NCBI GenBank assembly: GCA_019359035.1
Contig: JAHHIC010000054.1
Coordinates: 1 to 64,000 of the forward strand
Source of the DNA: Scytonematopsis contorta HA4267-MV1
GTDB lineage: Bacteria > Cyanobacteriota > Cyanobacteriia > Cyanobacteriales > Nostocaceae
Direction of reading: 5' to 3'
DNA: 64,000 nt
In this document: positions 44,293-49,603 of the stretch, one piece after another
How positions within the stretch are numbered: position 1 is the first letter of the stretch
Layout: each line of letters opens with the position of its first letter
Made by a program: the position numbers and the translations under genes
Notes under the pieces: model-generated
The model's database searches: none
What the model was told of the DNA's origin: nothing
What the model saw: only the letters and a program-made list of their open reading frames with translations

Positions 44293-44553
44293 ATGTCTAA
44301 AATTGGTATTAGTATCACTGTTAAGTTGTTTGCTGCTTATCAAGAAGCTTATAAAGTTTCGGAGTTAGTACTTGATTTTCCGGAAAATACTCAAGTTTTT
44401 GAGGTTCGGGAACGTCTTATTAATGAACATCCAGAGCTCGCTCGGTGGCGTGATGTGACTCGTTTTGGTGTTAATTTGAATTTTGTTGAACCTGATACGA
44501 TTATTCAAGATGGAGATGAAGTGGTTTTGATTCCTCCTGTTAGTGGGGGTTAA
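44293..44553 (+). CDS. MoaD/ThiS-family sulfur carrier
   Basis: An 86-residue ubiquitin-fold protein. It begins ISITVKLFAAYQEAYKV and ends in DGDEVVLIPPVSGG with the C-terminal Gly-Gly that is adenylated and thiocarboxylated by a MoeB/ThiF-type enzyme. The core is close to MoaD, the small subunit of molybdopterin synthase. No moaE or moeB lies nearby, so the true acceptor pathway is uncertain. GGAGGGG precedes the ATG. A second, CysO-like carrier lies 3.4 kb away at 48003. Confidence 0.85.
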   Translation: MSKIGISITVKLFAAYQEAYKVSELVLDFPENTQVFEVRERLINEHPELARWRDVTRFGVNLNFVEPDTIIQDGDEVVLIPPVSGG

Positions 44554-46372: not shown

Positions 46373-47677
46373 ATGACTCAGGTGACGACTACCACAACCA
46401 AAAAAACTACAGCCCCATTCCAAGGTCTCAAATGTAAAGAATGTGGTGCGGAATATGAAGCAAAAGCACTTCATGTTTGCGAATTGTGTTTTGGCCCATT
46501 GGAAGTTAAGTACGACTACAGCAACTTACGTCTCACTGTCACTCGCGAAAAAATTCAAGCTGGTCCAAACTCTATATGGCGTTACCGTGATTTTTTACCT
46601 GTTGCTACCGATGACTATATAGATGTCGGAACTGGTATGACTCCTTTGGTACGTTCCCAGCGCTTAGCTCGTCGCCTAGGTTTGAAAAAGCTATATATAA
46701 AGAATGATGCCGTCAATATGCCTACCCTCAGCTTCAAAGATAGGGTAGTTTCCGTTGCTCTTTCACGAGCCAAAGAATTAGGTTTTACTACTGTTTCTTG
46801 TGCTAGTACTGGTAATTTAGCAAATTCAACTGCTGCAATTGCGGCTCATGCTGGTTTAGATTGTTGTGTGTTTATCCCTTCAGACTTGGAAGCTGGTAAG
46901 GTTTTGGGTAGCTTGATTTACAGTCCCACACTTATGGCTGTTAAAGGTAACTACGACCAAGTAAATCGTCTCTGTTCTGAAGTCGCCAATACACATGGTT
47001 GGGGATTTGTCAATATTAATTTACGTCCTTATTACTCAGAAGGTTCCAAAACTCTGGCTTTTGAAGTCGCTGAGCAATTAGGCTGGGAACTACCCGACCA
47101 CATTGTTGCACCTCTAGCTTCTGGCTCTTTATTTACCAAAATCTATAAAGGTTTCCGCGAGTTCGTCGAAGTTGGTTTAGTGGAAGATAAAAAAATCCGC
47201 TTTAGTGGGGCACAAGCTGAAGGTTGCTCTCCTATTGCGGAAGCGTTCAGAGAAAAACGCGACTTTATTAAACCAGTGAAACCAAACACAATTGCTAAAT
47301 CGATTGCAATTGGTAATCCTGCAGATGGTGTATATGCAGTCGAAATTGCGAATAAGACAAACGGCAATATAGAAACGGTGACTGATGCTGAAATTATTGA
47401 AGGCATTAAACTACTAGCCGAAACCGAGGGTATATTTACCGAAACCGCTGGTGGAACAACTGTTGCGGTGTTAAAGAAACTGGTGGAAGCTGGTAAAATT
47501 GACCCAGAGGAAACAACTGTGGTTTACATCACTGGTAACGGCTTAAAAACCCAAGAAGCAATTCAGGGCTATGTCGGAGAACCCTTAACAATTGATGCGA
47601 AACTTGATAGCTTTGAACAAGCTCTAGAGCGTTCTCGCACTTTGGAACGTTTGGAATGGCAGCAAGTTTTGGTTTAG
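46373..47677 (+). CDS. thrC: threonine synthase with N-terminal zinc ribbon
   Basis: ThrC converts O-phosphohomoserine to threonine with PLP. The 434-residue protein starts with a C4 zinc-ribbon-like extension (Cys21, 24, 36, 39: LKCKECGAEYEAKALHVCEL), typical of cyanobacterial and plant-type ThrC. The fold-type II core shows the PLP lysine in LSFKDRVV, the substrate loop SCASTGNLANSTAA, the Gly-rich APLASGSLFTKI and, near the C-terminus, TGNGLKTQEA. A leader with alternative hairpins precedes it and a CysO-like sulfur carrier gene follows 325 bp downstream on the same strand. Confidence 0.95.
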   Translation: MTQVTTTTTKKTTAPFQGLKCKECGAEYEAKALHVCELCFGPLEVKYDYSNLRLTVTREKIQAGPNSIWRYRDFLPVATDDYIDVGTGMTPLVRSQRLARRLGLKKLYIKNDAVNMPTLSFKDRVVSVALSRAKELGFTTVSCASTGNLANSTAAIAAHAGLDCCVFIPSDLEAGKVLGSLIYSPTLMAVKGNYDQVNRLCSEVANTHGWGFVNINLRPYYSEGSKTLAFEVAEQLGWELPDHIVAPLASGSLFTKIYKGFREFVEVGLVEDKKIRFSGAQAEGCSPIAEAFREKRDFIKPVKPNTIAKSIAIGNPADGVYAVEIANKTNGNIETVTDAEIIEGIKLLAETEGIFTETAGGTTVAVLKKLVEAGKIDPEETTVVYITGNGLKTQEAIQGYVGEPLTIDAKLDSFEQALERSRTLERLEWQQVLV

Positions 47678-47829: not shown

Positions 47830-48002
47830 TTATGTAGACTTAATATTTACTTTATGAATCACTTCCAGATGTTAAAAACAGTAAACTGCTAATTGTTGAG
47901 GGTTGAATAACATTCAACTAAATGAGTAACAATAAAATAGTCAACAGCCAACAGTCATCCGTCAACGGTCATCCGTCAACAGTTAACAGTTAACAATTGA
48001 TT

Positions 48003-48278
48003 ATGTCTGTAAAAGTTTTAGTTCCTACTGCACTGCAAAAATTTACGAATAACCAAGCAACCCTCGAATGTAGTGGTGCTAGCATTGGTGAGCTTTTAAA
48101 TTCTTTGGAGCAAGCTTGTCCGGGTATTAAGGAAAGGCTATGCGATGAAAAGGGTCAACCACGGCGTTTTCTAAATTTATACGTAAATAGTGAAGATATC
48201 CGCTTTTTGGAAGGTACTGATACCCCGTTGAAAGATGGTGATGAGGTGAGTATTGTTCCTGCGGTTGCTGGGGGTTAG
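48003..48278 (+). CDS. CysO/MoaD-like sulfur carrier protein
   Basis: The 91-residue ubiquitin-like protein starts at ATG 48003; a TTG two codons earlier is less likely. It shows [40 protein letters not shown] and ends [14 protein letters not shown]. The layout, including the NxYVNxEDIRF block and the terminal AGG, is very close to what I recall of mycobacterial CysO, which carries sulfur as a thiocarboxylate to the PLP enzyme CysM. Here the upstream PLP enzyme is ThrC. The protein ends exactly at Gly-Gly, so no protease step is needed. Function is inferred. Confidence 0.85.
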
Positions 48279-48439: not shown

Positions 48440-48606
48440 AATAAAAGAGAGTATCCTGTATCAAAGTTAAATCAGTAACAGTAAAATCCCCAAAAATTTC
48501 TTCTCACTTTCCGTAATCGTCAAACCTATTGGTGTATCTATATTTAGAAAAGCAACTATAAAAAATTATATACACACTATCACTACCACACAGATTTCCC
48601 TCATTC

Positions 48607-48634
48607 AACCTAATCTTGATGATTGGGTTTTTTT
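48607..48634 (+). terminator. intrinsic terminator-like hairpin
   Basis: AACCTAATC-TTGAT-GATTGGGTT forms a 9-bp stem (with G-U pairs) followed by a run of T. It lies 330 bp after the CysO-like gene and upstream of the ncRNA promoter. It could end read-through from that gene or a second small transcript. Confidence 0.6.
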
Positions 48635-48666
48635 ATTTTGATTGTGTCCCAAGCATTTCAGGAATT

Positions 48667-48696
48667 TTGACTGACTTAATCGTAAGACTGCATAAT
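48667..48696 (+). promoter_or_regulatory. putative promoter of the candidate ncRNA
   Basis: TTGACT (48667-48672), an 18-bp spacer and CATAAT (48691-48696). Near-consensus sigma-70 boxes predict initiation near 48703. Confidence 0.65.
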
Positions 48697-48702
48697 TTTA
48701 TT

Positions 48703-48902
48703 TTGCTGAGCCTATAGATAGATAGTTATAGAACACCAACCACAGCTTACGGAGAACATAATATTTTGGCTTCTCCGTAATTATTTAAAACCTGCTTGTG
48801 CCATTTAAAAACAAGCGACTATAACAAATCTATATAGCAAAGCATGGGGACTTACCCCAACTCAACCCAATCGTACTAACGGTTGGGTTTTGAGTTTTTT
48901 TA
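48703..48902 (+). ncRNA. candidate structured non-coding RNA, about 200 nt
   Basis: The segment between a TTGACT-18-CATAAT promoter and a strong terminator has several mutually compatible helices. A closing stem forms from CTATAGAT (48712-48719) with ATCTATATAG (48828-48837) and GTTATAG (48725-48731) with CTATAAC (48819-48825). Inside are hairpins TTACGGAGAA/TTCTCCGTAA (48747-48756/48771-48780) and GCTTGT/ACAAGC (48794-48799/48811-48816). Then come GGGG/CCCC (48846-48858) and the terminator stem. No long ORF is present (only an 11-codon frame at 48844) and the next downstream gene is on the other strand. It does not show the motifs of tmRNA, RNase P, SRP or 6S RNA that I can recognise. Confidence 0.6.
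48860..48902 (+). terminator. intrinsic terminator of the candidate ncRNA
   Basis: ACTCAACCCAA and TTGGGTTTTGAGT pair with one bulged base around a loop of about 13 nt and are followed by seven T. Confidence 0.85.
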
Positions 48903-48926
48903 CCTTCTAATTACACTAAAAATTTT

Positions 48927-49277
48927 TTATAAAGGTAGTTTAGCAATACGGTCAATCCATTCCTCTGCACTAGATGCAGCCCAAATCACAATTAATTCCT
49001 CAATGATAAGTTCAACTGGCAGTTTTTGGGAAACGATTATAACTCCTGCACTTTGAGCGTTTATGATGAACTCAGCAAACTCCGACGGCATTGTTTTTCT
49101 GTCATGGCTAACTAGAATACGGCCTTGCTGTGCAGCAATTGCCAATACTTCTGTGTCCTTTACACCTTCTAATCCAGCAGCAAAAGCTGTTTGGAAATCA
49201 ATGTTGGGTTCTCGTCGTAGTACTGCTGTCACTATATCTTGATTTGAATCCGCATCTGCTTGGTCGCGAATATTCAC
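48927..49277 (-). CDS. DUF5615 PIN-like toxin candidate
   Basis: The 116-residue protein starts at GTG (49277), which overlaps the stop of the DUF433 gene in the GTGA arrangement. It shows ADADSNQDIVTAVLRREPNI near the N-terminus (acidic residue at the PIN-like position) and LAIAAQQGRILVSHDRKTMP, the DUF5615 signature. DUF5615 proteins pair with DUF433 proteins in putative type II toxin-antitoxin modules, the former being a PIN-like nuclease. Toxicity is inferred from that pairing. Confidence 0.82.
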   Translation of the reverse strand: MNIRDQADADSNQDIVTAVLRREPNIDFQTAFAAGLEGVKDTEVLAIAAQQGRILVSHDRKTMPSEFAEFIINAQSAGVIIVSQKLPVELIIEELIVIWAASSAEEWIDRIAKLPL

Positions 49278-49603
49278 GAGTCCACCTTCTTTCTTGCGCT
49301 CTTTGCTGCTATGAGCTTGTTGTACAAATCTGGGTCAGTGGATTGTAGTGGTTGAGGCATAGCATTAAAGGCTGCTTCCTCTGTAGCAAGATAAGCATCA
49401 ACATCAGTTTTGTTAGCTAAATAAAATGCGATCGCCCCGTAAACTTGCTCTAGTGTCAGCAATGGGAAGGACTGAACAATAGCTTCAGGTGATAATCCCC
49501 TTTGGAAAGCGTAGACAACCGAGTCAAGAGAAATCCGGGTTCCTTCAACCCAATAAGCATCGTTTCGATACTCTACGTAGGATTTAGCTGCGACAACTGG
49601 CAT
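49274..49603 (-). CDS. DUF433 antitoxin candidate
   Basis: The 109-residue protein has the DUF433 helix-turn-helix-like domain (YVEYRNDAYWVEGTRISLDS, YAFQRGLSPEAIVQSFPLLT, QVYGAIAFYLAN). A C-terminal helical tail (ATEEAAFNAMPQPL) probably binds the partner. It precedes the DUF5615 gene by a 4-bp overlap, the normal antitoxin-first order. No clear operator palindrome was found upstream. Confidence 0.82.
   Translation of the reverse strand: MPVVAAKSYVEYRNDAYWVEGTRISLDSVVYAFQRGLSPEAIVQSFPLLTLEQVYGAIAFYLANKTDVDAYLATEEAAFNAMPQPLQSTDPDLYNKLIAAKSARKKVDS

Follow-up and report, generated by a model that had tools for sequence, protein, structure and literature searches.

The locus considered here raises the question of whether a 648-bp stretch free of genes encodes an RNA of its own and, if so, what kind of RNA this might be. 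The stretch lies in 64,000 nucleotides of the Scytonematopsis contorta HA4267-MV1 genome, hereafter the window, and the first-pass annotation had proposed it as the site of a candidate structured RNA not recognised as any of the standard ones. The latter part of this reading agrees with our searches: at the gathering cut-off, Rfam returned one tRNA alone from the whole window and no match in the region, and a relaxed threshold added nothing relevant. Plasmid and phage collections likewise yielded no DNA match to the element. The idea of a single orphan RNA has to be abandoned: the element belongs to a family with many copies, of which it is the long variant and the 3′ half of which is widespread in Nostocaceae. 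Positions 48703–48902 very probably constitute a real gene for a folded non-coding RNA, with a predicted length of about 200 nt; all parts of this RNA described below lie on the plus strand.

The RNA gene faces a convergent DUF5615–DUF433 gene pair (48927–49603, minus strand), a common PIN-like/antitoxin-like pair. Elsewhere in the window, a PLP-dependent enzyme resembling threonine synthase lies between two small proteins of the ThiS/MoaD type (44293–44553, 46373–47677 and 47997–48278).

The long RNA gene and its paralogues

BLAST of the same 10.66-Mb genome retrieved near-full-length relatives of 72–79% identity, together with others that match the 3′ part alone. A covariance model built from eight copies (R2) detected 13 long copies in the genome at E < 1e-5, one (C86) being truncated; the copy in the window matches at 48688–48861 with 185.4 bits. 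Some long copies stand alone and others form tandem groups (C12, C48, C69), and the genes next to them are unrelated. Two near-identical ones, C103 and C7 (loci L046 and L047), have homologous neighbourhoods with a 571-aa possible mobilisation protein, so the RNA family may travel on plasmids. Beyond this genome, R2 gave weak matches in 3 of 218 genomes (G154, G147 and G067), and three sequences of other genomes that were inspected all proved to be short forms devoid of the leader. The presence of the long form in other genomes was accordingly rejected, and any conservation of the leader is conservation among paralogues only.

The promoter pair proposed in the first-pass annotation, TTGACT (48667–48672) separated by 18 bp from CATAAT (48691–48696), is present and scores higher than any other candidate promoter in the region (10 of 12 positions). 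Its two halves fare differently among the paralogues. The −10-like box, CTGCATAAT at 48688–48696, is conserved: its core CTGCATAA is retained in 12 of the 13 long copies, the sole exception, C7, having AAGCATAA instead. The −35-like hexamer is loosely kept in the tandem group of long copies (by inspection, C69a also shows the spacing of 18) and is variable or absent in the others. With a start placed about 7 nt past the −10-like box, the predicted transcript would run from 48703 to 48902. Its longest reading frame has 13 codons, slightly above the maximum of 11 given initially; as no frame is conserved between long copies, the non-coding character of the element is upheld.

Folding and compensatory changes

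The minimum free energy of 48703–48902 is −63.5 kcal/mol, as compared with a mean of −34.5 for shuffled sequences (z = −7.25), and none of 200 shuffles folded as well. Full transcripts of the long copies gave z values from −3.5 to −7.8, all 12 copies tested being more stable than their shuffles. The closing stem (P1), the two inner hairpins (P2 and P3), the GGGG/CCCC hairpin and the terminator, all of which had been proposed from the letters of the window, are borne out by pair probabilities, which lie between 0.75 and 1.0 for most of their pairs.

According to these probabilities, P1 comprises 48711–48731 paired with 48819–48838 and an outer stem of 4 bp (48704–48707 with 48841–48844); over the entire 5′ arm (48704–48731, facing 48819–48844) the values range from 0.4 to 1.0, with moderate support in paralogues. 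The stem is strong in the window copy and in C69a and weak in many other long copies, and exchanging P1 arms between copies did not significantly weaken their pairing (p = 0.25). The 10-bp hairpin P2 (48747–48780, arms 48747–48756 and 48771–48780) shows compensatory A–U/G–C and C–G/U–A changes, and pairing between P2 arms of the same copy exceeds that between arms of different copies (p = 0.036). The 3′ arm of P2, TTCTCCGTAA, contains TCCGTA (48774–48779). P2 could in part reflect a DNA palindrome. In C13, C103, C7 and C52, however, the TCCG pair is missing and, by inspection, an unrelated hairpin (AAGG/CCTT) stands in its place, which favours a structure formed at the RNA level.

P2 is followed by a near-invariant AU-rich linker, AATTATTTAAAA (48779–48790), and by the weakly conserved P3 (48793–48817, GCTTGT/ACAAGC), which has 7 bp (48793–48799 with 48811–48817), or 6 without the terminal G–U, and whose 3′ arm coincides with the place where the short form is predicted to begin. 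Next comes a conserved AU-rich element, ACTATAACAAATCTATATAG (48818–48837), sequestered in the window copy as the 3′ arm of P1. The GGGG/CCCC hairpin, GGGGACUUACCCC (48846–48858), has no broken pair in the 25 sequences aligned for the 3′ module and displays replacements of G–C by A–U. The intrinsic terminator (48860–48902) consists of an 11-bp stem, running from 48860–48864 to 48889–48895, and a T-run; its helix also varies across the 25 sequences.

Pairing was further assessed on two alignments. In the MAFFT alignment, which is not fitted to structure, 87.6% of cells pair and six double-sided changes are seen (shuffled mean 2.1; slid 0–5). In the model alignment of 13 copies, which leans towards the structure, 86.5% of cells pair, with nine double-sided changes (shuffled 3.2; slid 1–3). 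The search for compensatory changes that had been suggested as a check has a mixed outcome: P2 and the GGGG hairpin compensate, and arm swapping gave no significant result for P1. The sequence comparisons thus support a shared architecture of the long copies, but the exact closed junction only in part.

The short form and the proposed origin of the long one

The 3′ module common to the long and short forms occupies 48804–48903 and was represented by a model of 100 positions (R1), to which the window copy scores 85.2 bits (E = 1.2e-16). R1 matches 139 of 193 Nostocaceae genomes. In a sample of 391 genomes from the order, 36 match, all in the window's own family, and none outside Nostocaceae. 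A pattern search put names to some hosts, among them Nostoc sp. 106C, Nostoc sp. T09, Nostoc linckia FACHB-104, Calothrix brevissima NIES-22, Calothrix sp. NIES-4101 and Tolypothrix sp. FACHB-123; from these named relatives we infer that the R1-bearing family is Nostocaceae, the heterocyst-forming group. Among viral sequences, a single IMG/VR contig has a weak match (L146, 3953–4038, minus strand, 35.8 bits); this contig may come from a cyanophage or be host sequence sorted wrongly.

In relatives the short unit is often repeated in tandem, with a spacing of about 168 bp in G087, and is preceded by TTTTCCGAAATC or TTCTCCGGAAT, followed by TGTAGTCATTATT. From the promoter spacing, the short RNA is predicted to start near AGACAAGC and to be about 90 nt long. 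In five genomes (G003, G087, G132, G140 and G121; loci L116–L120), arrays of short forms occupy a conserved site flanked by an ABC-2-type gene pair and an osmoprotectant-type ABC operon, and many of their copies carry TATGCGGAAGC, not TCCGGA. A degenerate short-form copy is also found just upstream of the long one in the window (48480–48644; R1 match 48541–48644, 39.1 bits, E = 1.1e-5). It has retained a TCCGTA remnant (48510–48515), the AU element and the terminator and has lost the GGGG hairpin, and the sequence upstream of the match resembles that of the short copy C69:49604–49701. The 648-bp stretch, free of genes in the initial description, hence holds two related elements, in an order (degenerate short, then long) recalling that of contig C69 (short, long, long).

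The box TCCGGA at −35, with one mismatch allowed, is known as DIF1 and marks heterocyst-specific promoters (PMC6133370; PMC9045159). A box of this type at −35 is found in the short form only, the long form's own CTGCATAA promoter having none. TCCG[AGT]A precedes 30 of 51 short copies of relatives and five of the seven copies scored as short forms of this genome, about 44–45 nt before an ACTATA element. The TCCGTA of the long form has the same spacing and, upon alignment to short-form promoters, is homologous to their −35 (DIF1-like) box. Measured by eye, the distance from TCCG to ACTATA is 44 nt in the window as against 45 nt in the genome's own short copy C51; by virtue of this agreement, TTCTCCGTAATTATTTAAAACCTGCTTGTGCCATTTAAAAACAAGC of the long form aligns with the short-form promoter, the −10 region of which has decayed. 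The CTGCATAA box lies about 110 bp upstream.

A plausible history would be that the ancestral small RNA consisted of the 3′ module, with its AU-rich element, GGGG-ACUUA-CCCC hairpin and terminator, behind a DIF1-like promoter of its own, and that the CTGCATAA box arose or was acquired upstream as a new promoter in this genome. The old promoter would now be transcribed as a consequence, its TCCGTA pairing with an upstream inverted copy as P2 and the old start region forming P3, with ACAAGC as its 3′ arm. We regard it as rather probable that the gene is such a long form of a multi-copy small RNA family, with a new promoter, the old DIF1-like promoter transcribed into P2/P3 and, probably, an action in trans. 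The bolder proposal, namely that the family is undescribed and that one lineage made its own DIF1-like box a hairpin arm by means of a new upstream promoter, thereby gaining a separately controlled long isoform in about a dozen copies, is put forward tentatively, with the odds tilted slightly against it.

Most likely, the RNA would act in trans, its exposed AU-rich or loop sequences base-pairing with mRNAs. Two conserved parts would be available for such pairing: the AU-rich element, ACTATAACAAATCTATATAG being the candidate target-pairing region, and the GGGG hairpin loop. The structured leader may either alter the timing of the module's production or cover the AU element until the RNA is cleaved; AATTATTTAAAA is a possible endonuclease site, and a cut in this linker would free the element. 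The mean unpaired probability of the AU element is 0.20 in the window copy versus 0.58 in the 3′ module alone. Clear sequestration is limited to a few long copies, so a general switch in which the leader hides the AU element was rejected: it holds for the window copy, not for all.

Several other explanations deserve consideration. The inverted TCCG boxes might bind a protein as DNA, the upstream part being a duplicated promoter or operator, and only the short 3′ RNA would then be made, from an internal DIF1-like promoter at TCCGTA (48774). This would account for the inverted repeat of the box that constitutes P2 and for the ancestral spacing kept in several long copies. Nevertheless, the −10 region of the short form (TGTAGTCATTATT) is degenerate in the window copy, CTGCATAA is conserved instead, and the four copies lacking the TCCG pair have another hairpin; we therefore consider this explanation unlikely. 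The dispersed and tandem copies, together with the plasmid-like surroundings shared by C7 and C103, may also hint at a small MITE-like mobile element that happens to carry a promoter and a terminator and has no function as RNA. To this we would give even less credit, given that copies of only 72–80% identity have kept the helices, the −10-like box and the terminator, that base pairs compensate, and that no terminal inverted repeats besides the terminator were noticed.

A role as a sponge or antagonist appears slightly less probable again. Here the 5′ arm, CCUAUAAAUAGAUAUAG, would titrate the short RNAs, whose AU-rich element it complements; 5′ arms indeed show about equal pairing with their own 3′ AU elements and with those of other copies, but AU-rich complementarity of this kind is weak and non-specific. 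Least of all do we expect control in cis, with the element serving a neighbouring gene as leader or attenuator. An intrinsic terminator at the end of the element would suit such a role, yet the next gene (DUF5615) lies on the opposite strand; the downstream gene is convergent at most long-copy loci, which argues against a leader, and the neighbours of the long copies are unrelated. A long, probably trans-acting form of a small RNA family thus stays our preferred reading.

Relation to known small RNAs

Heterocyst-forming cyanobacteria have few known small RNAs. In relatives the multi-copy family is preceded by DIF1-like promoters, which makes it a candidate regulator of heterocyst development, and short and long forms side by side offer a readable case of a small RNA gaining a leader and a new promoter. 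In the literature searched, no known small RNA of heterocystous cyanobacteria matches the element, NsiR8 and NsiR9 being compared by description only. Both are HetR-dependent RNAs of Nostoc sp. PCC 7120: NsiR8 (4547556r) has 171 nt and 11 homologues, and NsiR9 (4451847f) has 122 nt and homologues in 22 of 27 heterocystous genomes. On the basis of that description, the short form could be a homologue of NsiR9. Like the present family, Yfr1 and Yfr2 are small conserved cyanobacterial RNAs, Yfr2 being itself described as a family; they differ in that the region has no Rfam match and that, by inspection, the invariant Yfr1 motif CACUCCUCACACC is absent from 48703–48902.

NsiR1 is a tandem small RNA driven by DIF1 and located upstream of hetF (PMC9045159), with 12 copies in PCC 7120. 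Identity with NsiR1 had been suspected from the tandem arrays and TCCGGA boxes and was ruled out by locating hetF and the true arrays. hetF-like genes (830 aa, N-terminal CHAT) are present at L128 and L129, in this genome and in G087, each beside a true NsiR1 array, and the R1 and R2 copies lie elsewhere than upstream of or antisense to hetF. These arrays are large (L128, 4400–6230; L129, 7090–10735), several repeats in this genome being nearly identical, with a period of 142 bp. By inspection, their repeats (GGTAGATGCACCCTGATAAC, with TCCGGA boxes) bear no recognisable likeness to R1 or R2, and the R1 search of the genome gave no match on contig C57, which holds the NsiR1-like array. The two families thus resemble each other as multi-copy tandem small RNAs of heterocyst-forming cyanobacteria, each copy with a TCCGGA-type promoter and a terminator, but they differ in sequence and location, and the long form is set further apart by its different promoter and its structured leader of 110 nt.
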